The notes under the pieces: model-generated
Database searches by the model: none
The model's input: the letters and a program-made list of their open reading frames with translations, nothing else
What the model was told of the DNA's origin: nothing
Origin: Protoeuglena noctilucae
Lineage: Eukaryota > Chlorophyta > Pedinophyceae > Marsupiomonadales > Marsupiomonadaceae
Assembly: GCA_958009085.1 (NCBI GenBank)
Contig: OY253685.1
Coordinates: forward strand, 836,695-900,694
Direction: 5' to 3'
DNA: 64,000 nt
Shown here: positions 22,176 to 64,000 of the stretch, one piece after another
Position numbering within the stretch: position 1 is the first letter of the stretch
Layout: every line of letters starts with the position of its first letter
Translations under genes and position numbers: made by a program

Positions 22176-25100
22176 CTATGCCAGGTCGTCCTGCATGAGG
22201 AGGCAGACGCTGGCGAGGACCCACTTGGAGGGCGCCTCGTTGGTGCGGAGGGTGAAGACGCTGACGAGCGGCGCGTAGTTGTTGGCCCTCTGCATGTTGG
22301 TGTAGACCGGGCACTCGTAGTACCCGTCCAGGTTGTACTGGTCGGCCGTGACGGGGCGCAGGAGGATGACGGGCATCGTCGGGTGGAGCTCGTTGGGGTG
22401 CGAGTCCGCCACGGCCCCCGACTCCTTGTCCCACCGCGCGCCCTCCATCACGAACCCGTGCACGTAGCACCCCTCGGGCGCCGCCTCCGTGACCTGCGCG
22501 GACGTCTTGGCCGTCACGTCCGTCATGAACCGCATGACGTCAAGGGGGAGCTTGTGGGCGCGGGCGTACGCCTGCATGACGGCGGTGATGAAGGCCTTGG
22601 GGTTGAAGAGCCCCGGCAGCCACACGCTGTGGGGCGTAACCACTGCCCCCGCCGTCCACGCCCGGAGCTGGTCGACGCGCCGCCGCACGTCCTCGACCCA
22701 CGTGGAGAGCGAGTAGACCTCCTGAATGCGCGTCGACATGGCGCCCATCCACCGCGCGGGCACCGTGTTGGTCGAGATGCCCCGCGCCAACAGCTCCATG
22801 CGCTCCGACATGTTCAGCGCCCCGTCCAGGCCCAGCTGCAGCTCCTCGAGCGACTGGAGCATCTCGCTCAGCAGGAAGTTCATCCTCCCCGCCTCCTGCA
22901 GCGCCACCATGACGTATGGCGTGCGGTCCTTCACGCGCGCCTCGATCTCGACCATGTTGAAGGGCTCCGGGAGCGTCTCCAAGAGCTCCTGCACCCCGCG
23001 GCGCACGCGCTCCTCCGTGCCGCCGCCCGACCCGCCGCCCCCGCCGCCGCGGCCCCCAGACGACCCCGACACCTCCATGATGGTCTTGAAGAGCGTCTCC
23101 CCTTGCGCCGTCAGCAGCGACAGCTGTGCGTTGGGGTGCATGCCGTACATGAGGGGGCTCTCGTCCGGCAGCGTCTCCTCCACATACTGCTGCAGGTAGG
23201 CGTAGGACTCGGGGACCGGGGCGCGGAAGCCGGGGGCGAAGAAGTGGTCGGGGGGCGCGCGTTTGCCGTCCGCCCCCGCCTCGAGCGGGATTCGCATCTC
23301 CGGGCGCAGCAGCACCTCCAGGTACGTCATGCACGTGCGGCGATCCATCTCGTCGACGATGTGGCCGCCGTAGATGATCTGGGGGGGGTGAGGGGGAGGG
23401 TACGGGTGAGATTGATGGGTGCGAGGTGGTGAGAGCAATGTGAGGGGGTGACTAGGTGGGGGTGCGGGAGGCGGCAAGGAAGATATCATGGCGAGAAAGA
23501 CAACATGGCACAGGCATGGCACAGATGAGCACCCACGTGCCTCTTGCTGCTACAAACAAACACGTCGCGCATTCCCACACCCACAAATCCGCCTCACCTC
23601 CCCGAACATGTACCGCAGGTCCGCCCACGGCACGCCCTCGTTGCCCTCAAGGTAGTTCCTGAGGATGTCCGCGCAGGTGGTCAAGTCTCCCATGTTGAAG
23701 GAGTAGGAACGGCAGAATCCCATCCCGGACCCCGACCCCACGCCGATCCCCACGCCGAACTTCTTGCGGCCCAGCAGCACGCCGTGGTAGAAGCACAGCC
23801 CGAATAAGATGGACTTGAACGCGTCCTGCTTCTCGGGCGTGGTCAGCCGCGAGATGTCGTCGGGGGAGAATGCCGCGAACGCGCGCCTCATGTTGGACTT
23901 CATGTCCGAGGGCGGCTCGTTGGAGATCTTGATGCAGCCCTGCAAGATGCTCTCCGGGATGATCTTGGCGTGCGGCGCGCCGTTGATGGGCTCCGCGCTG
24001 AAGAAGCACCGGAAGTCGGCGTGCGCCGACTCGGCGGCCACCTCCAGCTTGCGCTCCAGCACGGGGATCCAGTCCTGCATCAGGTGCACGTTGTCCAGGA
24101 ACACCCACCCGCCGGACGCGATGTACTTGTCCAGGCAGTCCTGCGCGGGCTCCTCCTGCCCCTGCCCCATGCTCAGGATGGTGAGCTTGCCGTTCTCGCG
24201 CGTCATGCCGTAGTCCGCCGCCACCTCCTCGATGTCCCGGCTGGGGCTGTACCCGGGGAACAGGATGAAGAAGATGGGCGTGGAGGGCGCGGACTCCTCC
24301 ACCACCGTGGCCGCGCGGAAGGCCGGCTGGTTGGTGTAGTCGTTGCCGAGCGTGCCCTCCACGAACCGCTGCATCGCGTTGGTCACGCGGTCGGGGCGCA
24401 GCACACGCAGGATCAGCAGTCGGCGGAACTCCGTCGCCTTCGCCCACTCCCCGGGCATGGGCGCCTTCTCGCACGCCTCCTGGTCGCACCACTTGCGCCA
24501 CGCCTCGGACTGCTTCTCCATGTCGCGCGCCAGGCTGGACATGCTCGGCACGGACCCGAGCGGCTCCAGCCCCGCCCACTGCGCGTCCGCCATCCAGTGC
24601 GACAGCTCGTCCGTGATGGGCGCCGGCTGCGCGCTCCGCCGCCCCTCCACCAGCGCGTCGTACTCCTCGGGGGCGATGGCGCCCTCGCTCAGCAGGATCT
24701 TGAACGCCAGCATCGACGCCACGATGAGCTTGTCGCGGTCGAACAGCCCCCGCCGCGTGTACTCGAACACCGTGTACGTGCACGTGCGCAGCAGCGCCCC
24801 CAGCCGCGCCGCCAACGTCTCCGGGTCCAGTTCCTTGGCCTTGAGAGATTCGATGTCCACCTGGACCGTCTCCTGCTCCTCGGCCTTGCGCCCGAGCGTC
24901 GAGTGCATGCGCGAGAGGGAGCTGATGCGCGACGAGCCTGAAAGCTCCGCGATGAGGTCGCGGTTCCAGTCGAAGGACTTGCCCGTCATGACCTTGCGCC
25001 CAATGGCCATGAACCGCGCCTTGGCCGACGCCTTGGGCTCCTCGTCCTTGCCGCCCGTGGTGCGGTCGATGCCGCGCGTGAAGACGGTCACGAACGCGTT

Positions 25101-28100
25101 GAGCGAGAACTGGTAGAAGGCGTGGACCTTGTTGAGGGAGTTGAGGAGGAAGAAGAGCATGGACCCCCGCGCCGCCACGGGGCGGTACTTCTCCCGCGAG
25201 TCGTTGATAATCGCCTCGGTCTCCCGCGCCTCGTCCACTTTCGCATTTATGTCGTCGGCCACGCGCTTGGACTCTTCCAGACTCTCGATCAGCTCCACGT
25301 CCTCCGTGATGTCCCCCTCCGCCGTGGACAGCTTGAACAGCAGCGAGTCCTCGATCTCCTTCAGCCGGATCGTGAACTCGTTGTTCTGCACGATCAGCTG
25401 CGTCTTGGTCGCCTCCAGCTCCGGGCGCTCCTTGTTCACCACCAGCGCCAGCAGCTGGTCCTCCAGGCCCTTCTCCGTGACGGTGAAGTTGATCAGCGTC
25501 GTCTCCGCCTGCACCTCGGGGGGGAAGTGCGGGTTGGAGAGCTTGGTGTGGAGGAAGAGGCGGAAGTTCTTGTTGTACTCGACCTCCTTGTCCCCCAGCT
25601 TGACGTAGAAGCTGCGCCCCTTCTTGAACGTCGAGCGCGTGATGACCGGGTTGAGCACCGCGTCGATCGACTCGCCCATGTTCTCGATCAGCACCGAGTG
25701 CCCCGCCTCGATCGCCCGCTCCATCTGGTCCAGCATGCGCTTCTGCCCCATGCGCACCACCTGCAGGTTGTTCTGCGACTCCTTCTCCTTCACCCACGCG
25801 ATGCCCTGCGGGTCCATCATCAGCGGCCACCGCTCTGAGTTGGTCAGGATGGCCCCGTTCTGCACCGACGTCGGGTCGCTGGGGAGGCCCTGCGACACCC
25901 ACGACGCCACCAGCGCGTCGTCCACCAACACCTTCAGGGGGTCGGACAGCCCCTCCGTCATGGGCAGCTTGCGGTCCTTCATCCACGCCACCCACGAGGC
26001 CACCAGCTTGCCGCGGTACTGGCTCGTGAAGGGCCCGGCGAACGAGACAAACGCGGACGCGAGGAGCATGTCGCCCACGAGCACCCGGTACGACGCCTTG
26101 AGGTCCACCACCGTGCGCTCCCACCGCTCGCCCTCGCTGGCCAGCGCATTGATGAGGCGGTTGGCCAGGCCCAGCTTCCGGTCGCAGCGCTCCTTCTCCT
26201 GGATCGCCGCGTCCTTCTCGCGGTTCGCCTCGTCGAACTGCCGCTCCAGCTCCGCCACCTGCGCGTTGAGCTCCGCCACCTTGGCCTGCACCTCGGTCAG
26301 CGTGCGGTTGGCGCGCTCCAGCTCCGCGTTGGCCTCGGCCAGGGCGTTGCGCAGCGGGTCGACCTGCACCACCACGTCGTAGTACTGGATGATGGCGTTG
26401 GCCCAGTCCCGCAGACCCGCAGCTGCCGCCGCCTTCTGCGCCATGTCGAACTCGGGGTTGAACCACTCGAGCTCCAGGATGGGGCGGCATGCGTCCACGG
26501 TGCGCTTCGACACCTCCCCGCGGTCGATGCGGTCCTTGAACTCCACCAGTCGCTGGATGAGCTTGGGCGCCGGGATGCTGAACAGCAGCTTCTGCGCCAT
26601 CGCCCACCCGTCGCGCGCGATCTTCGGGTCGCCCTCGAGCAGGATGAGCACCACGTTGGTCACGTCGTCCACGCCCGTCGGGGGCTTCTTGAGGGCCTTG
26701 CAGACCTGGAGGTCCTTGGGGTTGAGCGTGTCGAGCGCCTTCATGGCCGCCTCCAGCAGCGGTTCGGCCTTGGCCAGCTCCACCTCCGCCTCGGCCTGCT
26801 TCTTGCTGACGTCCGTCTGGATCGCCGCGCACTTCTCCGCCTCGATCTGTGCCGCGTCGTTCTCCTTGTTCACCTTCTCCTTCTCCACGCCCACCTTCTC
26901 TGCAAACACGTTGGCGTCGGCCACCTTCTGCTCCACCTCCATGGCCTTCGCCTTGGCCTCCTCGATCAACACGTCCACCTCCGCCTTCGTCTTGTTCAGC
27001 TTGTTCAGGCCCACCTCCAGGCGCTCGATCGCCTCTTTCTGGAGGTTGCGCTTGCGGGCCAGGATGCTCTTGTACAGCTTGATGAGCTCCAAAAAGGACT
27101 TGGGCGTCGTGTAGTTGTACCGGCGCTCGCGCTCCAAAAACACCTTGGACATGGCGTTGACCTCGCTGAAGGAGTAGGGCATGAAGTCCACGACCGACGC
27201 GCGGATCTCAGCCGTGTCGAGCTCCACCTGTGGGAGAGGAGAGGGAGAGGGGGAGGTGAGGGGTGATGTCAGGGGTGATGTGAGGAATGAAAGTGGTGAC
27301 ACGAGGGGTGAGAGGAGGGCTGAGAGGGGTGCAGGGGTGCAGGTCAGGACGTGGGCGGTGTGGTGGTATGGTGGGCGGGTATAGCTACGCAAGCAAGGGA
27401 GAAGCGTGGGCGTTGTATGCGAGGCAGCCGCTCATGTCGATCGTGTCTCACCTCATCGATGAACTTCTTAGCCACCGAGTGGAGGGACTTCTCCGGCCAC
27501 GGCTGGAACCAGTCGATGACGGTGCTGTTGATGGTGGCGGGGAAGCGCTGCGATCGGACGCGGAAGGCCTCGCCCACCGGCGACGCCGTGAAGCAAACAT
27601 GTAAGTTCTTGCGCACGCGGCCGATGAAGGTGCGCCAGCAGTTGTCGTTGGTGTCCGGCAAGCCCATGGCCTTGGTCTCGGACCGCATCTGGTTGATGAT
27701 CTCGTCCTTATCCTCCTGGGCGAAGAGATCCGGGATCTCCCCCGACGACAGCAGGTCGTTGAGGTACACGAGCATGCGCTCGTCGACGATCTGCGAGTCG
27801 GTGAAAAGGAACGACACGCCCTCGCCCTTGACGCCGGACTTGCGGTACATGCGCTGGAGGTCGTCGCGGAAGTTGGTGAGGGAGTAGGAGCCGGAGATGA
27901 CGATCATCTCCGTCGCGTAGCCGCAGATGAAGGCGGCCAGGCGCGCCAGGCTCTGCTTGCCGGACCCGCCCACGCCCACCAGCAGCGCGTGGCCGCCCGT
28001 GTTGCTGATGATGCGGCTGATGCGGCACACGTGCTTCATCGCGTCCTCGAACAGCACCAGGTCCATGACCGGGTTGCTCTCGTTGTACTCTGCTAACGCA

Positions 28101-31100
28101 TCCGTGAGGATCTTGGACAGGGAGTCGAACGAGGCAACCGCGTCGTACACCGCCTCGCCCATGCCCTTGGCGAAGTGGGAGAAGATGAGGGGCTTGGGGT
28201 TCTCCTTCTTGAAGAAGTCGTTGATGTCGTCGACGTCGAACTTCTTCGCGATGCCCTCGACCATCTTGGCGTACGCCGCCAGGTGCTCCTGGGACACGAG
28301 CCGGTCGGCGTACACGCGCTCCGACTCGTGCAGCCACAGCTTGACGAACTTGTTGGGGCTGCCGAAGGTGTCCGGGTCGGACATGAGCAGGCCCTGGAAC
28401 ACGTTCGCCAGGTGCCGCACCGTGAACTCGTAGTGGAAATTGATGGCCGTCTTGCGGAAGGTTGCCGACACGCGCTCGTGCAGCTGCAGCGCCGCCTGCA
28501 GGAGCTTCGTCTCCAGCTCCTGCACCGGCGGGGGGAAGTGCTGCAGGTGGCCCTTCAGGAAGGAGCCGTAGATGGTCATCAGCGACTCCTGGGAAGGGAA
28601 GTCCATGGCGAGCGTCATGAAGAGCCGCTGCAGGCGGGGATCGATGATGAAGGACCCGGCCGTGGGGTTCATGCAGGCCACGTACTGCGTGTTGTTGATG
28701 TTCTTCTGCGCCAGCTTGCTCCGGTCGAACCAGTGCCCCCAGCCCAGGTGCTGCCGGATGAGCGAGATAGGCATGGCCGTCTCGTACGCGTCCAGCTTGG
28801 GCATGTTCATGTCGTCCACGAAGTACACCAGGCGCTTCTGCCCCGGCGGGGCAAAGTTGATGCCGCCGGCCTTCTCCAGCGGCGACTCCATGATGCGCTG
28901 CGTCACCGTCACGTCTGTGAAGTAGTTGAAGTTGAGCGTGAGCGTCATCATCGTCTCGGGGTCCAGCGCCCCCAGCTTCCCCATCACCAGCTGCGTCTTG
29001 CCCACGCCCGCGCCGCCCACGAACATGATGGGCTTGCGCAGGGCGATCATCATGTCCAGGAAGAAGCTCTGGCTGGCCGTCTCGGCCGTGGGCACGAACA
29101 CTGAGCCCATCGGCGTGCGCTGGGAGTCGAAGGTGATGGTCTCCACCAGGTCCGGCCACCCGGAGAGCTTCCCCTTCTTGACGTCGACGTAGAAGTCGAA
29201 GACGAGGCCCTTCCCCGGGAACCGCACCGCCGCGTACTTGGCCTTGAACCACCGGTCGAAGTTGCGGCGGTAGTCTACGCCGTCCTTGGTGCACAGCGCG
29301 CCGCCGAAGGCCCAGATCATGGCGAAGACGAGGCACGTCTCGAAGATGGCGGGGTCCGACCGGGGGTTGACCGACTCAGGGTCCAGCAGCCCCTCCATGA
29401 TGTTGACGACCGACGTGACGAAGTTCATCGTGTTGAGCGGCGTGATGTGCTGGTAGCGCGCCTTCATCTCGAAGATGGCGTCGGGGAGGTATCGGTTGAA
29501 CAGGTTCCACATGCCCTTGGCCTGCTCCTCCGGGTCCTTGAACTTGGCGGCGGCCGCGAAGGGCTTAAACACCCGGTCGACCCACGAGCGCACCATGTTG
29601 CTCCACTGGGTGGCCTCGGAGATGTACAGGATGCCGGCGCGCGTGGCCGTGGCGGGCGTGGCGAACTTGAGGTCGCGAATCTCGAACACCAGCTTCATGT
29701 GGGGGAGCACCCGGATGCGCTCGTTGGACGGCAGCGTGAGCAGGCGGTTGTCGTCCATGACCGAGTTCATGCTCTCGATCCAGTTCGCGTCCAGGTCGCC
29801 GTCGAGCATGATCCACTTCGGGTCGTCGCCTGGCTGGTCCTGGAACTCCCGCATGAACTTGCTCAGCAGGCCGTCCTTCCACTCGCGCGTCGCCATGTTG
29901 ACGTAGCCGTACAGCTCGTAGGTCGAGATGGACTTGGGGTTGATGTCGCGGATGTACACCTTCTTGCGGTTCACCATCTTCAGATAGTCGTTCTCGGGCT
30001 CGTCAGTGCCCTTGGTGATGGCCTTGGCCAGCACGCGGTAGCACTCGGTGCGCCCGGTGCCCGTGGGCCCCATCAGGAACACGCAGTGGCGGATGGCCAG
30101 CAGGTCCGCCAGCTGCGTCACGCGCAGCACGAAGTCGTCGTCAGGCGTCAGCCCCATGTCCTTGGCCACGCTGGCGATGACGCGCTCGAAGTCCGCATCG
30201 CGCTTGCGGGGGGGGTCGACCCCCGGGAACAGGTCCTGGAGCAGCCCCATGAAGATGGGCATGTCCTGGGCGAGGATCTTGGGCACGTTGAAGTCCCGCA
30301 GCGCGCGGTACAGCACGTCCTGCTCCACCTGCCCCGCCTGCGCCCGCAGCAGCGACCCGGCCACCACCAGCACCGACTTGATCGCCCGCAGCCCCCAGTC
30401 GTAGTGCTTCTGGGGCGAGAGGAGGTCCTCCAGGAGGTAGTAGAGCGCCGCGAACTTCTTGGCCAGCATCTTGGCGTCCACGAAGCCCTCGGCCATGAGC
30501 ATGTTCTCCATGATGAGCTGCCGGTCGGGCACCACGACCGTGATGGGGCGGAAGAGGACCTTGAGGGACTCGGGGAGCTCCGCGCGGCCGATGTACCCCG
30601 GGTTCATGGTGATGAACCCGGACGTGCCTTCCTCCAATGGCATGGTGGTGCCGTCGGCCGCCACGAACGACCAGCTCTCCACTGCCGCGTGCTTGACACC
30701 CTCCTTGTCGATGTACTCAAGACCGCGGCCGGGCAGCGCCGCCTTCTGCCGCTGCGAGTCGCACACGGCCTTGTACTGCACCGAGCACACCGACAGCACG
30801 GCCGGCACCAGGCGGTTGAACTCGTCGAAGCAGCCCCAGGAGCCGGACGCGGCCAGGCCCTTGAAGATATCGCCCATGGTGCGGTAGTCCATCTCGGGGC
30901 CGCAGTTGAACACGTAGATGGACTGGGGGGGAGGTGGGGGTTGGGGGGGTGAGTGGGGAGGTGAGGGTGGGTGCGCAGGCGGGGGCATGGCTAGGGGCTG
31001 CTAGGGAGGGGTGTGCGTGGTGTGACGGTGATCAAATGTGTGTGAGAGAGCAGCGCTTCGAGAGAGCGTGAAAGGGCAGCGGGCGGATGTGTGACCGGCC

Positions 31101-34100
31101 AAGTTGCCACGCATACCCCGACTCTCCATCTTCCCCACCTGTGCTTAGATTTCTCCATACATCACCATACATCACCCTTACTCCCCCCATTCTCCCTCAC
31201 CTTCCCCAGCTGCGCGGAGAGGTCCTTGGTGGTCTCGGTCTTGCCCGTCCCCGCCGGCCCCGCGGGTGCGGTGCCCATGGACAGCCAGCACGCCTGCGTG
31301 GCCGTGATGTAGATGCGGTCGGTGAGGGGGGTGATGACCAGGCGAGGCCCGTTGCCCAGGTACTCGTAGCCGTAGGGGAAGAAGGCGTCGCAGATGCGGA
31401 TACGGCAGTCCTGCACCGACTGGTCCCAGTACGAGCGCAGCTGGGGGGGCGGAGAGAGAGATGGGGTGAGGGATGCCGAGGGAGTGGTGGCGGCATGTGA
31501 ACGATGAGGTAAGAGATGCAGTGAGCGATGCCATGGGGCATGCAGGGTGGTGGTGGTGATCACGAGCGATGTAAGAGAGCGGTCCATGCATCATGTATGC
31601 CACGTGCTGTGCCCCCTCCGCCATTCTCACCTGGATGGTCCAGAGGAAGGCGTCCACGCGGTCGCACCCCTCGTCGACCATCTTGGCCACGATGTCGCGC
31701 GAGTGGGCGTCGATGGTGATCATGTTCATGACCTTCTGACGGTCCGGCTTGCTCAGATTGGTGCGCGTGACCTCGATCAGCCGCGTCAGCTGCTCCACCT
31801 GGAAGGCGTTGTACGTGCGCAGGGCGTCCTTGTCGCCCGAAGCGACCTTGGCCAGGGCGCTCTCCACCTCCTGCGAGAGTGGCAGGCGAGGGGGGGTGTG
31901 GGTGCATGGGGACGTGCGGAGGGGGAGCACGGCACATGTGTACACTGGCGGGGGTGCGCATGGGTCCACATGCAGTGTGGGTGCGTTTGGGTGCGCAAGC
32001 AGCGTAGCCACTCGCCTGGCACCAGAAGATCTGCGAGACGACGAGGATGAGCTGGGAGGGCCAGTCGAAGAGCCACTCGTGCCTCTTCTTGACCCCGTAG
32101 GCCTTGATGGAGTCGGACAGGATGGCCCGCAGCTCCGTGCGCATCTTCTGCACCATGTCCGACATGTACGACTCGACCTTGTTCTCCAGGGCCAGCTCGG
32201 ACTGGAAGGGCACCTCCTCTACCCCCACGCACGACACCATGCCGCGCGCGCGGGGCCGCTTGCCCGGCTCGGGCGTCTCCGTGTCGAGGGTGAGGCGCTC
32301 GATCGCCTGGAAGCACTTGCTCATGTGGCGCATCACGCGCACGGGGTTGTTGCCGTTGGACAAAATGTCCAGGAGGTCATTGCGGGACACGAAGTAGAAC
32401 CTGGAGTGAGAGAGGGGGTGAGGGGTTCGGGGATTGGGCCGGGGGTGCGTGAGTAGTGGAAGTGGAGAGGAGAGTGTAAGGGCGAGTGCAAGCGCAGGCG
32501 AGAGGCGGTGCTGAGCAGGTGCTGATCAGCCGCGAGTGTGATGCTAATGCTACAACGATGTAAAGCAGGCGACAACACGCAAAGCGAGTGCCAATAAGGT
32601 GCCGTCGAGTCACACACAGTGCGTCGCTACCCCCCAACCCACCCACACCCACCTGGGGAACGCCCGTCGCTTGGACTCCATGTAGTCGGACAGCGCCTTG
32701 TCGCACAGCTCCAGCTCGCTCTGCAGGTTTTCCAGCTGGGCCATGAGCCCCTCCTTGTTGCAGCACGCCACGCAGTTCTTGACCGCGTGCATCTCCCGCA
32801 GGATCTCCTTCACGCGCCGGTCGATCTCCGCGAACCGCGTGGCCGTGTCAGGCAGCTCCTTCTTGACCTCCTCCGAGTGGATGAAGAGGCTTTCGAGATG
32901 CGACCACGACCGCTGGATCTCCGTCAGCAGCTGGTTGACGTCGTACACGTTCATCAGCTTGGCGTTCCACCCGAGGATGGCGTCCCGGAACGTGTTCATG
33001 TACCGGTTGGCCATCATCCCCTGCACCAGCACCTGGTTCTCCTCCAGGGCCTCGAAGTCCTCCTCCTTCATTTTCACCATGTGCACGTCCGTCTCCTTGA
33101 ACCGCTGGAAGTCCAGCTCCGCCACCGCCCACAGGTCCTCCAGCTTGCGCAGGTTCATCTCCATCTTCTCCTCCTTCTGTGCACGGTCCACGATCTCCCC
33201 CACGTCCTCCTCGAACTTGTGCAGCTCCAGCGCGAGCAAGTCGCCCAGCCGGAAGGACTCGTCGATCACGAACTGCTTCTGCGTGGCCTCCATCAGCAGC
33301 GCCCAGTGGCGGTCGCGCATGGCGGGGGAGCGCAGGTCCCCGATCAGCGGCACGGAGACCATGAAGTTCTTGATGTCCGTCTGCAGGGCCTTGTAGGCGC
33401 CCGAGTCGCGGATCGACTTGTCCAGCGACTTGAGCTCCTTCTCCAATGCCTTGACCCCGTCCTCCATCTCCTCCACCACCACGCGCCCCCACACCACGTC
33501 GCGCCAGGCGGCCACCTGCGTCTGCACCATGCGCGTGACGTCCCAGCACGCCTTGATGCTCCGCAGCTCCCCCATCATGCCGCGGATCGTCGCCACCGCC
33601 GGCTCCACCAGGTCCGGCAGGTTCAGCACGAACGCGCTGGCCTGCATGTCGCGGCACTGCTTCTTCAGCAACACCAGCTCCCGCAGCACCCGCTGCATCT
33701 GGGGGTACGCGGAGTCCAGGCTTCCCGCCACGAACACGGCGCTGGCCTCAAAGTCGCGCTTGAACTGACGCAGCTCCCCACGCTCAAAGTCCTTGAACCG
33801 GTCGCGCAGCTCGTCGGCCAGGCGCTGGCGGTAGGGCTCGAACTCCTTGGACACCGGGCCCGCCGCGTCCTTCTTGACCTCCGCCCACCGATCGACCAGG
33901 TCCTCGACCTCCTTCTCCTCCTTGGGCATGGGCGCCTTGAGCCGCCGCATTTGCCCCGCCAGCGCCACCAGCGTGTCGAGCTCCAGCTCCACCATGTCGC
34001 GCTTGGCGCTGATCTCGAACAGCGCCTCCGCCACCTTGGTCTGCTTGTCGCGGCTCTCCGCGAGCGCCTCCGCGTTGAGGCTCATGTCCAGGCCCATGCC

Positions 34101-37100
34101 CTGGCGCTCCACCCAGCTGTCGACGCTGCCGATGCGCTCGGCCAGCTGCCGCTTGACGTAGCCGCGCAGGTCCCACTCCTGCCGGCTCTGCACCAGGTCC
34201 AGGGACATGGCCACCGACAAGCGACTGCTGGCCACGGGGCTCCCCAGCACCACCAGCAGCTCCCGCACCACCAGCAGCACGGCATTGTCGGGCAGCCACG
34301 AGGGCGAGCACTGCAGCGCCGTCTGCCACTCCATCGTCTCCAGGTCCAGCACGTACGCGTCGAACAGGCGCTTGCCCTCCGCGTCGCGCCCGCCCGCCAC
34401 CACCACCTTCTCCCCCGACGTGCCCAGCCGCGTGACCAGGGGGGACGTGCGGGGGCACGGCGCCTGCCCGCGGGTCGCGGGGTCCACGGCGACGGTGAAC
34501 CGCGGCTTGGTGATGCGCCCGGCCGCGTTGGCGCAATCCTTCCCCGGCCGCATGACCACCAGCTCCCCCAGCACGACCGTGCTGCCGTCCCCCAGCATGG
34601 CCTCCCCCCCGAACATCACCACCGCGCCGCCCGCGTCCGAGGGCACGTACCCCGCCCCCGCCTTGCGGCGCGGCGCGGGCATGCGGTCCACCTCCATCGG
34701 CCCCTTCGCCTCCCCCTCGATGTCCATGACCTGGAACGTCCCCGCGAACTCGCCGCCCTCCTCGCCCCCGTAGTTGACCACCAGGTTGTTGTCAATCGCC
34801 ACCAGCGTGTGGTTCTTGCGACCCCCGCGACCCACCGCGGGGTCCAGGGGCTTCACGGCGCTCAGCGCCGCCACGCTGTCCAGGGACTTCTCGCCCGCGG
34901 GGGCGGGGGACGCATCGGCAGCAGCGGAAGCGGAAGCGGCGGCCTCGCCCTCCGCGTCGCCATCCGCCTCGCCCTCTGCCGCCCCGGCCGCCGCGCCGCC
35001 GGTGCTCGACCCCTCCCCCTCCCCCTCGGCCGCCGCCGCCGCGTCCCCCTCGCCCTCGCCCTCCCCCGCGCCCTCCCCCTCCGCCGCCGCCGCCTCCCCC
35101 TCCCCCTCCTCGTCCTCCTCCCCCTCCGCGATCGAGTCGTTGGGACCCAGCGACCCATGCCAGTGGTCGGCCTCCGCGTCGAATTTGCCCGGCCGCACCC
35201 ACGCCCACCCGTGCTCCTCGTGCTTGAGCACCCACATGTCGTTGAGCTCCTTCCCCGACCGCGCCGCCGGCGTCTCCCCGCACGTCATGACCAGCGTGTC
35301 GCGGCCGAACTGCGCCAGCTGGGCGTTGCGGCGCGGGGGGGGCGCCTCGTCGCCGTCGACGTGCACCGCCTCCCACTGCCACTCCCCCTCCTCGCACAGC
35401 AGCGAGTGCACCTCCACGGCCGCCACGCCCCCGCACAGCACCACGCGCCGCGCCTGCTGCAGCACCGCCACCGCCACCCCCTCGGCGTACGCGGGGGGCT
35501 GCCCCAGCACGCGGGGGTTCGCGAAGCAGTCCACCGCCTGGACGGGGAAGGGCGACCCGCGGATGGGCGTCTCGGCGTGCTGCGCCGGCGCATCCCCGCC
35601 CCCGTCCGCCGGCTCCTCGGCCAGCTCCACGTAGCAGACCTCGACGCGGTAGGCGCCCGGCTCCGGCACCGAGTAGAAGACCTCATAGGTGCCGTTGTCC
35701 AGGTCCACCACGCGCGCCGTGCCCCGCACGCGGCCGTCCACCGACACGGGCGAGACGTGGAAGCGGTCGCCCCCCGACCTCCGGTTCTGGTTGAGCGTGT
35801 CCTTGGCCTGGATGAGGAAGGAGACCTCGAAGCCCGCGGGCACTGTGGGGCGGAAGGGCTCCTCGGCCTGCAGCGGGTGGCGCACGTTGACGTGGCCCAC
35901 GCCCGGCCCCATGGCCAGGCAGTGGTGGGCGGCCGTGTTGGCGAAGTAGTTGAAGTCGAGCTTGTTGACCGTCCAGCCCTCGTCGTTGATGCTCGCGCGC
36001 AGGTCCACGGGGTACGCCCCATACGACTCGAAGTTGGGCGTGCGGCACGTGAGGGTCTCGGCGTCCACGAACGCGCCCTCCACCGTCTCCTCCATCTTGC
36101 CGGACCCGAACTTGACGCGGACCTTGCCGGGCTTGAAGGACAGGCCCTTGATGGTGACCTCGGTGGAGCCGAACACAGGGCCGATGTTGGGGGACACGGA
36201 GAGCGCCGCGTAGGGGGGGCCGATGATGGGCGACACGTTCATGGCCCAGCAGTCGCCGAGCCACTGGTTGGACCAGCCGCCGAAGAGCACCAGCTGGCAG
36301 GCGCGGTTGTCGTAGAACCACGCGGTGTCCTCGCGGCCCGCCGGGGGCGCCCCCTCGCAGTCGGGCGACCGCCACTTGAGGTCGGCGCAGTCCATGACCT
36401 GCACGCCCCCGCTGAAGTTCATGGGGCCGCGCTGGCCGCCAAAGAGGAACATCTTCCAGTGCGGCACCGACTCGACCGCGCTGAACTGGTGGTTGCACAG
36501 CTCGGAGGGGTAGTGCATGACGCGCGCGGGGGAGTCCATCCACGCTGCGGGGGTGGGTGTGGGTGCGGGTGGGGGTAGCAATGTGGGAGTGAAAGTGGGT
36601 AGGGCATGCAGGCGGGGAATGCAGGGATGCACAGGGAACGCGCGAGGCAGAGCGGGAGCATCTGAGCACGCGAGCGACGGCACGTCCACCCTCACCAATG
36701 TTGTCGAGGTCGAGCATGTACATGTCGGTGAAGGTCTGCGAGACGTCGCGGCCGCCGGAGATGGCCAGGCGGTTGCAGCCGTCGCCGTCGGGGAAGGCTG
36801 CGGGTGACGGGGAAACGAGCGCTGTCACTGTGCTGCACCGCTGCGGCATGCGAGGGGCCGCGTGGCGCATGCGCAACGCCTCACCCGTCAGCCGGTGGCT
36901 GAAGCGAGGCGCGGGGGGCTTCCCCGATGCCTGCAGCTCCTCCCATCGCAGCCCCCCCTTGGATGGGTCCCCGTCCGCCGGCAGGTGCAGGGCCCACAGG
37001 TCCCCCAGGGCGCGCCCGGACCCCCCGTAGCCGCCAAACAGGTACACCTTGCCGTGGTAGGAGCACGCGGAGGCCTTGGAGCGGCACCCCGGGTGCGCCT

Positions 37101-37575
37101 CCCCCTCGAACTTGGCCGGCGTCCACGTGTTGCGGCCCAGGTCGAGCAGGAAGGCGTCGTCGTAGCGGGTCTTGTGGTCGACGCCCCCGTACACCAGCAT
37201 GTGGTTGGGGCCCACCGCCACGGCGATGTGCTTGTTCCGAGGACCAGGCTTCACACCCGCCGGCGTCAGCTTCTTGACCTTGATCTGCGCGGAGAGGGGG
37301 GAGCAGAGACGCGGTTTGGCGTGGGCCACCACCTGCGTCAATGTGGGGGCGCACGCCTGCTTTGATTTGCGAGCAAGGCGGCCGGCCGGTCGCACCTTCG
37401 GCTCGTCCTGGAGAGGCTCGAAGACGTAGACGTCGTTGAAGCAGCACGGCTTGCCCTCGGCGTCGCGGCCGACGCCCCCGAACAGCACATGCTTCTGCCC
37501 GACGGTGCAGAAGGTGTGGCCGGCGCGCGCGTTAGGGACGTCGCCCACCACCTCCAGCTGGCCCCATCGGACGGA
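22176..37575 (-). CDS. Axonemal dynein heavy chain, outer-arm alpha type with Kelch N-terminus (first exon not found)
   Basis: Flagellar motor ATPase. Exons 37575-37396, 37284-36885, 36797-36696, 36544-32653, 32400-32016, 31870-31631, 31440-31201, 30922-27452, 27227-23598 and 23378-22176 give ~4,580 residues in frame; a short first exon with the ATG must lie upstream. The N-terminus has Kelch blades ([39 protein letters not shown]), an IPT-like and a filamin-like region, then more Kelch-like sequence broken by an acidic Glu/Gly/Ala insert (about 34890-35130). The linker follows. P-loops: AAA1 [11 protein letters not shown]2 GPTGTGRT (arginine for the usual lysine), AAA3 [11 protein letters not shown]4 [11 protein letters not shown]1 Walker B is CFDEF. 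The stalk has two coiled coils around LKKPPTGV. A glycine run (near 23040) sits in the C-terminal region. The intron after IFWCQ (32015-31871) is GC-AG. Family certain; alpha-type assignment rests on Kelch plus filamin architecture and length near the ~4,500 residues of Chlamydomonas alpha chain. Confidence 0.95.
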
Positions 37576-38526
37576 CTGCGAGGGAGGACACGAAGCTGGT
37601 ACTCCAGAAGGGCGCGGCGAATCGCGCGGGTGCTTCCAAGCCGGGACCACGCAAACCGCCCGCTACCGTCCGCAGGAGAGGGCGCAGGGAGGCGCCAAGG
37701 GTGCGAGAAGAAAGGTGCCTGTGATGGCGTCACGGCGACGGCGCGGTGGCGCGCGCCGAGGAGCGGTTCCGCTACGGTTCCACCCCGGTCCCACCGCGGG
37801 CCCATCCAAGCCCGCTACGCGCCGAGAGACAATTCTGCATCCCCAGTTCATGTGAACCTCGACAATGAACCACTGCATCATTGCTGGCAGGCAACCGGGC
37901 GCCTCCCTGGGCGGGGCCCCAGAGCATGTACTCGACTCGTCCCACCATGAGGGGTCTCGCCGGGATCCGCGCACCAGATATCAAGCAAATCAAGCAAAGA
38001 GCGCATCATAAAGCGTCATATGCGCTCACCATGATTTCCTAAGCGCTGCGACAGCGCGCTGGAGCAGCTCAGCGCCCTGCGCCTCTGGGTTTCTCGGATG
38101 CCAAACAACTACTGATACAACGTTACGTCTCGTACGATTGGATTGCGTAGAACTAATCACGGTGCAAATTGTTTAGTCCAACCGGTGCACAGTCACAGAC
38201 AACCGCGGCCAAGCCAACGCCGAACCCCCGGGTGCATGCCCAACAGTGCACTGGAGAGCCGCGGCCTGCCCCCGTGCTCTTTGGGAGCCGAAACGCCAGA
38301 CTTTGGTTGCCAGAAGTGCTGCGCCGAGGGCAGCGGACAGGAGAAGTAGCTTGGACGGTCATGCCGCATACGCCAAGGCAGCGCGTGGTGCGCGCGAGCC
38401 TTTGAGGCCCGCTTTCCTTCGCGGGGACCAGAGCACGACGCGTGGTGCATGCTGCCCCGGCGGGCGTCGACGAGTTCGTTTCCAGGGTAGCCGACCGGCC
38501 TCGTGATTTGACGACGGCGTAATATC
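37576..38526. other. Upstream of dynein and EXO5 genes
   Basis: Divergent region of ~950 bases. The dynein start codon should be here: an acceptor ends at 37576 on the minus strand and several ATGs lie upstream near 37801-37851, but none splices convincingly. From about 37985 to 38165 the sequence is relatively AT-rich, as a promoter might be. Confidence 0.4.
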
Positions 38527-46018: not shown

Positions 46019-46178
46019 TTGAAGAAGCGGCGGGCGTCGCTGGCAACGTGGGCTGGCAAGTGAGCAACGCTGGCACGACCTTCTCCGCGTCTCGGAAATG
46101 GTCTACCAAAGCACTGTTACGCGATATTTGCCAGCACCGCGTACGAGTAGCGCTCTTAGCGAAATCGGGACCTCCAGC

Positions 46179-46794
46179 ATGCGGGCCATCACGCTCCTCG
46201 CGCTCGCCGTCCTGGGCGGTGCGCAGCTCATCGCCGCCGCGGGGATGTACTCAGGTGAACGTCTGTTGTGCACATCGATGGCTTCCGACCTTCAATCAAG
46301 CGCATTTGGGCGCGTTGGCTCGGCACTCTCGGGACGCCCTAGCTCGTCGATGGAGCGGCGGGAAGCGCACTGCCGGCCAGAAACAGTCGTGGAAATCAGA
46401 GTGATTTCAGCAGCGATGCAGGGGTCAGCCTTCTGTGCGGCAGTGGTGGAGACGAGTCGATCGTGCCGCGCGCAGGCCTGTCCGTCGACCCGAAGGGCCC
46501 CTGGGCTGGGCGCCAGGCGCTGGCTACCACCGTTAGCCCCCAGCACGGGGCAGGGGGCCCGGCGACTCTGGGAGGGGTCAAGCCCACATGCGATTGCCGG
46601 GACTGCAACGCTTGCTTCAAGTGCGTCAACTGCACGAACTGCACCCTGTGCCACAGCGGCAACCAGGCAAGAGATTGCAGTGAGAGGGACATGGACTCCC
46701 TCATGCAGGCAGGCAGAGGAGAAGGCATGAGGCAGCTCCGCCCTGCCCTCTGCAGAACGAGCAGGTCCAGAACTCGCAAAAGTCCGGGCAGTGA
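46179..46794 (+). CDS. Small secreted protein with a C-x-x-C array (novel)
   Basis: Exons 46179-46254, 46476-46666 and 46756-46794 join in frame to 101 residues. The N-terminus MRAITLLALAVLGGAQLIAA is a clear signal peptide. The mature part begins GLSVDPKGPWAGRQ and has a Gly/Ala/Thr stretch. It then holds eight cysteines in 21 residues: C-D-C, then six successive C-x-x-C steps (CRDCNACFKCVNCTNCTLC). It ends NEQVQNSQKSGQ. I recognise no family. A secreted metal-binding (metallothionein-like) or disulphide-ladder peptide is possible, but that is inference. The second intron has a GC donor (CAG|GCAAGA, 46667). It sits 160 bp after PUS7 on the same strand and is tail-to-tail with a second secreted gene of the same exon-1 size and phase. 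Exon 3 (13 codons) is the least certain part. Confidence 0.65.
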
Positions 46795-46940
46795 GCAGCC
46801 ATCTGCAGCAAGCAGCGAAGGCGCCCGCTGCGCCTGAGCCTTTACCTCCCAGTCTGGCTGCGGGAGGGGGTTGAGGGTAGAATCGTTCAGCTCACGAATG
46901 GCTAGGTGGACGGTACAACACATGCCCATGCAAAGCTGCC

Positions 46941-47367
46941 TCACTTGACCTGCGTCACGCCGCTGCTGCCGGAGCTGGTGTTGACCGAGGTGGACTGACC
47001 CGTCTTCTGGACCTGAGTCGCATTGGGTTGGGTGTTGACTTGCGTTGTCGGCGTCGTCGGCGGCTTGGACGTCTTGCGCAAATCCCGGCTGTGGGACCAG
47101 GGGCCGAGGCCCAGCGACCCGTCTCCCACCACAGCGCCTGCAAACGATGTGGAGACAGGCAGCCAAGTTTACAAATTGCCTTAGAAGTCGCGGTCCACAT
47201 CGGAAGCCCCGGCACTCCGTCGCCAACGCGTGCGCGCGCCGGCTGCTGAGCACGAGGGGTGTCATTGATTGAATCAAGAAGGTTGGCTCGCCTGGGAGGG
47301 CCATCGCGGTCGCCATGCTGACCAGGACCGCGAGGACAGCGAGAACGAGAGCGCTTCGGGTCGTCAT
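46941..47367 (-). CDS. Small secreted Thr/Ser/Gln-rich protein
   Basis: Exons 47367-47292 and 47137-46941 give 90 residues. A signal peptide is seen, MTTRSALVLAVLAVLVSMAT, ending near MALPG. The mature part has LGLGPWSHSRDLRK, then a low-complexity tail rich in Thr, Ser, Gln, Asn and Val (PPTTPTTQVNTQPNATQVQ) with candidate O-glycosylation and N-glycosylation (NAT) sites. There are no cysteines in the mature chain. Exon 1 is 76 nt and phase 1, exactly as in the convergent Cys-rich neighbour, and both mature chains carry GPW soon after the junction, which suggests a diverged pair. The intron donor is GC (CCAG|GCGAGC, 47291). Without splicing the frame still runs on for some 27 codons, so a one-exon variant is possible. 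Function unknown; a cell-wall or extracellular-matrix role is only a guess. Confidence 0.6.
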
Positions 47368-47545: not shown

Positions 47546-48033
47546 TCATCGACGCGAGGTCAAAGCATGGGCAGTCAGGTCCTCAATGGTCACGTAGCGC
47601 AGGGCGGCCTCGCTGGTCGCCTCAAGGAGGACGGGCGGGGCGACCCCAGCCACTCGCGCCTCCTCCCAGCGCGACGCGCAAAGGCACCACCGGTCGCCCG
47701 CCCGAAGGCCCGGGAAGTTATACTCCGGCCGCGGCGTCATGAGGTCGTTGCCCCGGCTGCGCGAGTACTCGAGGAACTCCTGCGTCACTTGGGCGCAGAC
47801 CACGTGCCGGCCCGTGTCCGAGGGGCCCGTCTTGCAGCAGCCGTCCCTGCATTCGCAACAGCACGCGATGTGAGGCTCCGCCCCTCCCACAATGCGAAAT
47901 CCATCTCACCCAGGCAGTGCGCAGCACGGGGGCCATCGAGGCGCCTGTCCTGACCCTATACTTACCGGTAAAAGCCCGTGAGAGGGTCCATGGAGCAAGG
48001 CTTGAGCTCCGTGCCGAGTACATTCTTCAGCAT
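47546..48033 (-). CDS. DUF2237 family protein
   Basis: Small protein of a widespread bacterial and algal/plant family of unknown biochemical function. Exons 48033-47966 and 47846-47546 give 122 residues, close to the bacterial length. Family motifs are nearly complete: LKPCSMDPLTGFYRDGCCKT, HVVCAQVTQEFLEYSRSRGN, PRPEYNFPGLRAGDRWCLCA, RWEEARVAGVAPPVLLEAT and the C-terminal YVTIEDLTAHAL. The conserved cysteines (C-S, D-G-C-C, V-C, W-C-L-C) suggest metal binding or redox chemistry, which is inference. The start is the ATG before LKNVLG. The frame stays open upstream without another ATG back to an acceptor-like site near 48120, so a first exon with a targeting peptide could exist. Confidence 0.85.
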
Positions 48034-62265: not shown

Positions 62266-62306
62266 TTCACAAGGGGGACTCGGACGCGCGATGGCGCGAT
62301 CCGCCG

Positions 62307-62382
62307 GCCGGGCCGCCTGAGGAGGATGGGAGGAGGGTAGGGAGCGGTGGATGTCATGATTGGCCGCACATAAGCTACACAG
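62307..62382. repeat. Subtelomeric repeat R1, copy 1 (76 bp)
   Basis: Matches 63087-63162 with two mismatches (GGAGGAGGG versus GGAAGAGGG, GCGGTGG versus GCGGGGG). Followed after one base by repeat R2. Confidence 0.9.
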
Positions 62383-62383
62383 G

Positions 62384-62420
62384 GAGAGTCATAGCACCCC
62401 TCGACTGTTGAATCGCTCAT
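62384..62420. repeat. Subtelomeric repeat R2, copy 1 (37 bp)
   Basis: GAGAGTCATAGCACCCCTCG and the following 17 bases are identical to 63438-63474. Confidence 0.9.
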
Positions 62421-62584
62421 TGGGTGGGCATTGGGTGGGTGGGCATGGGCTGGGCGACACAGGGGTGTCGGGTGTCTGGGGGGCGACGGGGGCGCGAGGC
62501 AGGCCAAGGTCTTCTGGGTGCGCGGGGGCGCGTAAGCGGGGGGGCGGCCACGGGTATCAGGGCGCGCGGGTGCGCGGAGCGAGA

Positions 62585-62756
62585 GGTGGGCCAAGGTCGT
62601 CAGCGTCAAAGGGCCAGGGTCGCCACAGCGTCGGTTAAAGGTCGTCAGCGTGATATGCCAAGGTCGTCAGCGCGATGGGCCAAGGTAGTCAGCGCGATGG
62701 GCCAAGGTCGTCAGCGCATTAGTCCAAGGTCGTCAGCGTGACGGGCCAAGGTCATC
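62585..62756. repeat. Subtelomeric tandem repeat, ~22 bp unit
   Basis: Seven or eight imperfect units around GGGCCAAGGTCGTCAGCGC. Non-coding. Confidence 0.85.
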
Positions 62757-63437
62757 TGGGCGTGTGGGGGCGAGGAGTTGAGGGACGGGCCAAGGCCGAC
62801 GGGCGCGGGAGAGGACGGGCCAAGGGCCAAGATCGACGTGCGGGAGCGAGGAGCGGGGTCGCGTCGTGGGTCTCTGGGCACACGGCCGAGTGGGTCGTGC
62901 CGGCGCACGCACCCGGAGCGGGGCGGTCTGGGGCGGTCCACATGAGAGGCAGCCGGCCCTCGGGGGCGCAGCGTGGGCGAGCGGGGCGCCCAGGGGCAAC
63001 GCTGCGCCCCCCAAGGAACGCCGTCTGCGTTCGGACCGCCCCCACCGCCCTCGCGTCCGGGCCAGCGTGGCCTGGTGGGCGAGCCAGCCGGGCCGCCTGA
63101 GGAGGATGGGAAGAGGGTAGGGAGCGGGGGATGTCATGATTGGCCGCACATAAGCTACACAGATCGTCATTAGCCTCGGCCTCACCTTTTGTAATAGACG
63201 CCCGGGGGTCTCCACGGAGGGCCCCCGCGGCTGCATCGTCCCACTCTGGGACGGCGATTCTGCCTTCGGGCGCAGCGAGGGGGCTAGGGGTGCAAGAACC
63301 CGGGGTGGGCGACCCCTTTGCCTTAGGGTGGGGTGACCTAGCGGGGGCGGGCCACGTGCCATATGCACTGCAACGATGGAAACCCCGGGGTGTCAGCTGC
63401 CCCGGGGGACGGCACTTCTGCCGCAAGGCGTGGCTCT
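62757..63437. other. Subtelomeric GC-rich sequence without a recognisable gene
   Basis: Contains R1 copy 2 and an approximately 275-bp block (63163-63437) that separates R1 from R2 and is absent between the first copies. Frames in this block are Gly/Pro/Ala-rich with no domain I recognise. Confidence 0.45.
63087..63162. repeat. Subtelomeric repeat R1, copy 2 (76 bp)
   Basis: Second copy of the sequence at 62307-62382, offset exactly 780 bases. Confidence 0.9.
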
Positions 63438-63500: not shown

Positions 63501-63771
63501 CAGGTAGGCCGTCGGCGTAGCGCGAGCGGGAGGGGGGCGAGGGGTGCGGCGGAGCGGTCATGTGCATTGCGACTCTCTAGGCAGGAGGCGAGGTCGCAAA
63601 ACCCCTGGCAGGCGCCAGGTGAAGGCACAGCCGCTCGGTCTCGTTGGCTCGGGACGAGCCGCGCCCCGGAGCCGAGGGGGGCTTGCGAGGCGCCGCGCGC
63701 GTGGCAGCGTGCGGTAAAATGACGATCTGTAGCATGGATGGGCCGGGCGGCCGGCGGAAGGGGGTCGCGTG

Positions 63772-64000
63772 GTTAGGGTTAGGTTAGGGTTAGGTCACCC
63801 CAGGTTTAGGGTTAGGTAGGTTTTTAGGTAGGGTTAGGGTTTAGGTTAGGTTAGGTTTAGTTAGGGTTAGGGTTAGGGTAGGGTTAGGGTTAGGGTTAGG
63901 GTTAGGGTTAGGGTTAGGGTTAGGGTTAGGGTTAGGGTTAGGGTTAGGGTTAGGGTTAGGGTTAGGGTTAGGGTTAGGGTTAGGGTTAGGGTTAGGGTTA
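63772..64000 (+). repeat. Telomere, TTAGGG type
   Basis: About 230 bases of telomere repeat with the G-rich strand reading 5' to 3' toward the window end, so the chromosome tip is to the right. The inner ~110 bases (63772-63880) are degenerate, mixing TTAGGG, TTTAGGG, TTAGG, TAGGG and TTAGGTAGG. From about 63880 there are ~20 perfect TTAGGG units. Confidence 0.97.

Follow-up and report, generated by a model that had tools for sequence, protein, structure and literature searches.

A convergent pair of small genes near a chromosome end of Protoeuglena noctilucae, possibly encoding related secreted proteins, one with a C-x-x-C cysteine ladder

Two small, convergently transcribed genes, gene A on the forward strand (three exons, 101 amino acids) and gene B on the reverse strand (two exons, 90 amino acids), lie with their stop codons 146 nucleotides apart in the window, the 64,000-nucleotide stretch of DNA that was analysed here (C18:836695-900694, from a genome of 26.3 Mb in 26 contigs). 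Both are very probably real genes. Splicing reproduced exactly the two gene models put forward in the original prediction, and with them the features that had been read from the letters: in each gene, a first exon of 76 nucleotides that ends in CAG and leaves the frame in phase 1; a GPW motif early in the mature chain (residues 33–35 in A and 37–39 in B); eight cysteines within 21 residues of A (residues 64–84), spaced C-x-C and then in six C-x-x-C steps; and a mature B that is free of cysteine and rich in Thr, Ser and Gln. Each gene also has the one GC-donor intron described for it, but the introns concerned differ (intron 2 in A, intron 1 in B). That both products are secreted, as had been claimed, is plausible from their predicted signal peptides. 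The parts of the two genes are listed in Table 1.

Table 1. Parts of genes A and B and copies of the shared 9-mer (positions in the window; G+C fractions at codon positions 1/2/3)
Feature	Position	Strand	G+C at codon positions 1/2/3	Remarks
Gene A exon 1, predicted signal peptide MRAITLLALAVLGGAQLIAAAGMYS	46179-46254	+	0.72/0.52/0.92	76 nt, phase 1; donor CAG/GTGAAC
Gene A intron 1	46255-46475	+	0.63/0.62/0.60	GT-AG, 221 nt
Gene A exon 2, GPW motif and cysteine ladder	46476-46666	+	0.59/0.62/0.86	donor CAG/GCAAGA
Cysteine ladder, A residues 64–84, CDCRDCNACFKCVNCTNCTLC	46589-46651	+		two N-C-T sequons inside
Gene A intron 2	46667-46755	+	0.62/0.55/0.69	GC-AG, 89 nt (29 codons)
Gene A exon 3, NEQVQNSQKSGQ and stop	46756-46794	+	0.58/0.25/0.92	24-nt match to B, 75%
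Gene B exon 2, GPW motif, Thr/Ser/Gln-rich tail, cysteine-free	46941-47137	-	0.53/0.59/0.86	
Gene B intron 1	47138-47291	-	0.53/0.67/0.57	GC-AG, 154 nt
Gene B exon 1, predicted signal peptide MTTRSALVLAVLAVLVSMATAMALP	47292-47367	-	0.68/0.52/0.80	76 nt, phase 1; donor CAG/GCGAGC
TTGATTGAA in A intron 1	46291-46299	-		TTCAATCAA in the sense of A
TTGATTGAA in B intron 1	47265-47273	+		TTCAATCAA in the sense of B
Third TTGATTGAA	46015-46023	+		spans the stop codon of the TruD-like gene

As an overall explanation we tentatively favour, at somewhat below an even chance, a real convergent pair of secreted proteins that arose by inverted duplication, with A a thiolate peptide and B a glycosylated companion. 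Transcribed towards each other, the two genes would yield small proteins that enter the secretory pathway, both derived by inverted duplication from a single small secreted-protein gene. Each copy would have kept the 76-nucleotide, phase-1 signal exon, traces of intron 1, and the GPW and QVQ codons. The copies would have come to differ between these two motifs, A having the 21-residue ladder and an additional GC-AG intron, B a stretch rich in Thr, Ser, Pro and Gln. A would most likely be an extracellular or wall-bound thiolate peptide, in which cysteines three residues apart would fall on one face of an extended chain and soft metals (copper, zinc or cadmium ions) may be bound by successive C-x-x-C pairs. 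Its companion B would be flexible and probably glycosylated. This explanation and its rivals overlap rather than exclude one another, and the probabilities that we attach to them need not sum to one.

The reality of the two genes was judged from composition by codon position. The first intron of A is flat in this respect and that of B is without a bias at position 3, while the short second intron of A has a weak bias; the TruD-like frame next door has a position-3 G+C of 0.83. Stop-free non-coding windows of exon length, drawn from the A/B locus and overlapping one another, served as a local null. The position-3 G+C of the exon was reached by none of 557 such windows for A exon 1, none of 11 for A exon 2 and 3.4% of 1,108 for A exon 3, and by 8.4% of 557 for B exon 1 and none of 10 for B exon 2. 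When windows were taken in any frame from 130 kb of genome sequence that also contains true genes, the same values were reached by 7.6%, 11.8% and 14.1% for A exons 1–3, and by 26.6% and 11.4% for B exons 1 and 2. Composition supports coding, though it is not unique to the exons of A and B, because 7.6–27% of any-frame genome windows match it. Coding support is good for all three exons of A and for exon 2 of B, and weaker for exon 1 of B, the weakest piece of the pair owing to the share of local and genome windows that reach its position-3 G+C.

Unspliced readings of the locus were rejected on the same measure. For A, which has open frames of 235 and 164 amino acids, the bias is missing in intron 1 and in the read-through of exon 2 (0.55/0.70/0.64 at codon positions 1/2/3); for B, an open antisense ORF of 329 amino acids has 0.68/0.54/0.69, again without bias. 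An in-frame upstream ATG at 46101, which would lengthen A by 26 residues ahead of its signal peptide, is unlikely at a position-3 G+C of 0.54. We also scanned 194 kb (the window plus 13 sampled 10-kb stretches) on both strands for signal exons, defined as an ATG, a hydrophobic core, a small/small cleavage site and a donor, by rules set after A and B had been seen. The scan gave five candidates, three of them with a position-3 G+C of at least 0.78, and two of these three are A and B. With a looser donor rule the same 194 kb gave eight rows, representing seven start codons.

Two of the three introns of the pair have GC donors, both within the context CAG/GC[AG]AG. This is odd here, because all readable donors of light-harvesting genes were GT (12 of 12 in six genes; 3 of 15 listed junctions gave none) and GT-AG introns are put at about 98% of plant introns (PMC7072748). 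The GC donors may instead be lost splice sites, with one or both of A and B nonfunctional, either as decaying copies or as over-read intergenic DNA. Consistent with such loss, homologue searches with A and B came back empty, the composition of B exon 1 is weak, and splice sites can be chosen freely in a GC-rich genome. Decay or over-reading does not, however, readily account for a codon-position bias that separates the proposed exons from the introns, for two GC donors that both lie in CAG/GC[AG]AG contexts, or for an eight-cysteine ladder that lies on a stop-free, biased frame, and we consider it unlikely.

An inverted duplication, the origin proposed in the original prediction, is moderately supported: words shared by the introns and a collinear chain of such words speak for it, and the protein comparisons largely do not. 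A BLASTP comparison of A with B gave an E value of 0.79. Protein shuffle tests gave p values of 0.017 for the whole proteins, 0.33 for exon 1, 0.18 for the mature chains, 0.13 for exons 2 onwards and 0.04 for the mature chains minus the ladder, and plain local DNA alignment gave no significant match for introns (p 0.29), coding DNA (p 0.20) or the upstream stretches (p 0.89). On balance we lean slightly towards regarding A and B as paralogues.

The DNA word tests that favour a common origin were picked after the likeness between A and B had been noticed, and the pieces that form their null overlap. In the sense direction, the first introns of A and B have TTCAATCAA, CGCGTTGGC and GGCTTCCGA in common (shuffle p 0.001; 1 of 1,048 real pieces), and the antisense control has one 9-mer. 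Five words are common to the first introns at k = 8, against a null mean of 0.59 (equalled by 0 of 2,108 genomic pieces), and three at k = 9, against 0.17 (1 of 2,108). Shorter words gave six in common against 2.18 at k = 7 (59 of 2,108) and sixteen against 8.2 at k = 6 (28 of 2,108), and at k = 10 the first introns have no word in common. Across the whole genes there are 13 common words at k = 8 against a null of 6.14 (8 of 654), with 7 in antisense, and 7 in sense at k = 9 against 1.72, sd 1.35 (1 of 654), with 2 in antisense; the two words at k = 10 (a number reached by 65 of 654) and the single word at k = 11 (84 of 654) are unremarkable. Four of the 9-mers, two in intron 1, one at the GPW codons and one at the QVQ codons, form a collinear chain, and as long a chain was reached by 4 of 1,308 null pieces; six words are chained at k = 8, a length reached by 14 of 1,308. 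Three of the seven common 9-mers lie off the chain.

The first intron stands at the same position in A and B, after 76 nucleotides and in phase 1. Around signal-peptide cleavage sites, introns of phase 1 are generally more frequent than expected (PMC1626468), and the exon-1 layout common to A and B is therefore weak as proof alone. A and B may be unrelated convergent genes, with their layout an instance of this documented trend and with GPW, QVQ and the common words due to chance, a reading with which the BLASTP E value and the p values for exon 1, the mature chains and the local alignment of introns all agree. It is harder to square with the words common to the introns and their collinear chain, and with the clustering at the locus of the 9-mer TTGATTGAA, each of these tested post hoc; we regard it as a real but lesser possibility.

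In the 26.3 Mb of the genome TTGATTGAA occurs 44 times, against 22 for a reversed control. All three copies in the 64-kb window fall within 1.3 kb at the A/B locus (0.08 expected), and no other triple of this sort in 194 kb is as extreme. Its use as a marker of further signal-exon genes was abandoned, since the 120 kb of sequence at 40 of the 41 other sites (one on C26 was left out) gave 3 candidates, no enrichment over the 8 obtained from 194 kb. A 14-nucleotide direct repeat, AAGAAGCGGCGGGC, flanks the pair (46022 and 47434) and was considered as a target-site duplication; this too was set aside, since repeats of at least 14 nucleotides are common in the genome, one or more being contained in 44 of 143 overlapping 2.4-kb windows of the sampled genome.

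The cysteines of the ladder in A stand at its positions 1, 3, 6, 9, 12, 15, 18 and 21. Translation of 314 kb in six frames revealed no longer C-x-x-C run, the runner-up being a poly-Cys stretch. Runs of at least four cysteines at this spacing gave 14 overlapping matches in these frames, six of them in one poly-Cys stretch (at most 13 residues), four in the ladder itself (at most 19) and four short ones elsewhere. Cysteine makes up 8 of about 80 residues (about 10%) of mature A and 8 of 21 within the ladder. A single-sequence AlphaFold2 model of A exon 2 was poor (mean pLDDT 58.4, pTM 0.27; 60, 76 and 72 for blocks of the ladder) and decides nothing.

Our best guess is that A is a secreted thiol peptide, and we rate metal binding by it slightly above cross-linking through disulphides. 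Metals are commonly bound at C-x-x-C pairs, and if the genes are real, metal binding by A would have close to an even chance. Disulphide use, on the same proviso, would be a lesser possibility and yet nearly as likely, because the secretory route is oxidising and disulphides are favoured there over free thiolates. The ladder would then be oxidised in the ER and bind adjacent chains, or be bound itself, into the wall or the extracellular matrix, with B as a glycosylated matrix partner. A predicted signal peptide leading into an oxidising route, an even number of cysteines, the two N-C-T sequons inside the ladder and the two sequons of B (N-A-T and N-T-S) are all consistent with a cross-linker of this kind. 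However, cysteines at i and i+3 over 21 residues are, in our judgement, unlike an ordinary disulphide core, and A is without a family-model match in Pfam and NCBIfam; we regard the cross-linker as a real but not a leading possibility. Returning to metal binding, a more particular form of it would make A and B a lineage-specific secreted pair, produced by inverted duplication, in which A gained a one-face ladder and, with it, an unbroken strip of metal thiolates outside the cell. A would then be a metallothionein-like module whose spacing is unmatched in the family libraries searched. All of this together seems unlikely to us.

Searches of the genome for paralogues with A, B and the ladder as protein queries found the genes themselves, the ladder matching only itself, save for one weak match of B on C22 (E 0.077) with two stops inside. 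Against 5.8 billion proteins, in a search that reaches just proteins with short exact words in common, A gave 33 candidates, none at E ≤ 1, and B solely the window's own prediction; the frame of B exon 2 is already in the protein database as a predicted 62-amino-acid protein, P0001. Viral contigs gave 12 and 26 pattern matches and no relatives of A or B. Solved-structure matches for A were at chance level (ribosomal L40E, E 0.12; KDM2A, E 0.32). In the family libraries, A matched no Pfam family at E ≤ 1 and no NCBIfam family at E ≤ 10, and two matches of B were taken as noise: DIM in Pfam, which is sub-threshold (E 0.32, 11.7 bits against 20.8), and Shiga toxin 2e subunit B in NCBIfam (E 2.1, 8.4 bits against a cut-off of 203).

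As a control, the protein of the neighbouring DUF2237 gene (47546-47905, reverse strand) was searched against the protein database. It found its own entry and then, as the nearest non-self protein among the best 120 of 7,992 matches listed, many of them without an organism name, one from an Acidobacteriota assembly that is 80% identical over 81% of the query. The DUF2237 gene is possibly of bacterial origin. Judged on this gene, the protein database seems to be without close relatives of the alga, and the missing homologues of A and B therefore say little on novelty.

The pair lies close to the end of a chromosome in this small alga, and a (TTAGGG)n array at 63771-64000 of the window is the end of contig C18 (900,694 bases); many green algae have TTTAGGG as their telomere repeat instead. 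Beside the telomere, 62290-63240 is a near-identical dispersed repeat; at least 22 other places in the genome, many of them distant from contig ends, match at least 350 bases of it at 86–100% identity, and at least 74 matching pieces occur genome-wide. The direct neighbours of the pair are, by Pfam, TruD-like, DUF2237 and amidohydrolase genes. The TruD-like gene is upstream of A (Pfam TruD, E 6.6e-26), with its stop 160 nucleotides before A, and the DUF2237 gene (Pfam, E 5.1e-45) is beyond B, which sits between it and A. Chlorophyll a/b-binding proteins are encoded in the genome (21 exon-level matches), with light-harvesting frames that we take from their appearance to be of green-plant type. 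A dynein heavy chain whose repeats are of the Kelch, IPT/TIG and filamin kinds is encoded elsewhere in the window, at 22179-37662 on the reverse strand. Of its five frames, four have a G+C of 92–95% at codon position 3, and the N-terminal one (35686-37662) has 68%, compared with 83% in the TruD-like frame. Dynein heavy chains with such domains are axonemal in other algae. With chlorophyll a/b-binding proteins and a dynein heavy chain in its genome, the source organism is a photosynthetic alga and probably has flagella.

Metallothioneins are described as having cysteines in CC, CXC and/or CXXC arrangements and a cysteine content of around 30% (PMC6981760). A has one CXC and six CXXC, and resembles metallothioneins such as UcMT1-3 of the green alga Ulva compressa in its small size and clustered CXC/CXXC cysteines. 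In contrast, the UcMTs have mostly CC and CXC and A one long CXXC run with no CC; A has a predicted signal peptide, and its cysteine content is about 10% rather than about 30% (PMC6981760). A also had no curated-model match. By the tests made, A would be a small secreted cysteine-rich protein, metallothionein-like at most, and not a metallothionein. A wall location such as that proposed for A is cited in a review for Mmt1, a metallothionein-like protein of the rice blast fungus (PMC9036806); Mmt1 is fungal and is likened to A by description alone.

The original prediction knew of no described family with this cysteine spacing, a statement with which the empty Pfam and NCBIfam results for A agree. 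Bare Cys-Xaa-Xaa ladders are known, however, from putative heterocycle-containing bacteriocins, where the string CXXCXXCXXC is mentioned for thuricin S (PMC2674419). Precursors of the heterocycloanthracin group are like A in their regular Cys-Xaa-Xaa ladder, small size and N-terminal leader; unlike A, they are bacterial, with repeats rich in Cys and Gly and a putative maturation by cyclodehydratase (PMC2674419). Homology of A to a bacteriocin leader was sought in NCBIfam with no match, in a release whose inclusion of model TIGR03601 is unconfirmed. The likeness between the two ladders is a resemblance of pattern, not kinship.

Annotation readily overlooks small genes like A and B, with their tiny exons and GC donors. 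If A does encode a secreted CXXC ladder of regular spacing, it would offer a compact thiol module, easy to test, for capturing metal or cross-linking the wall. If A and B are paralogues, they illustrate how one copy of a gene can gain or lose an array of cysteines and yet retain its signal exon.
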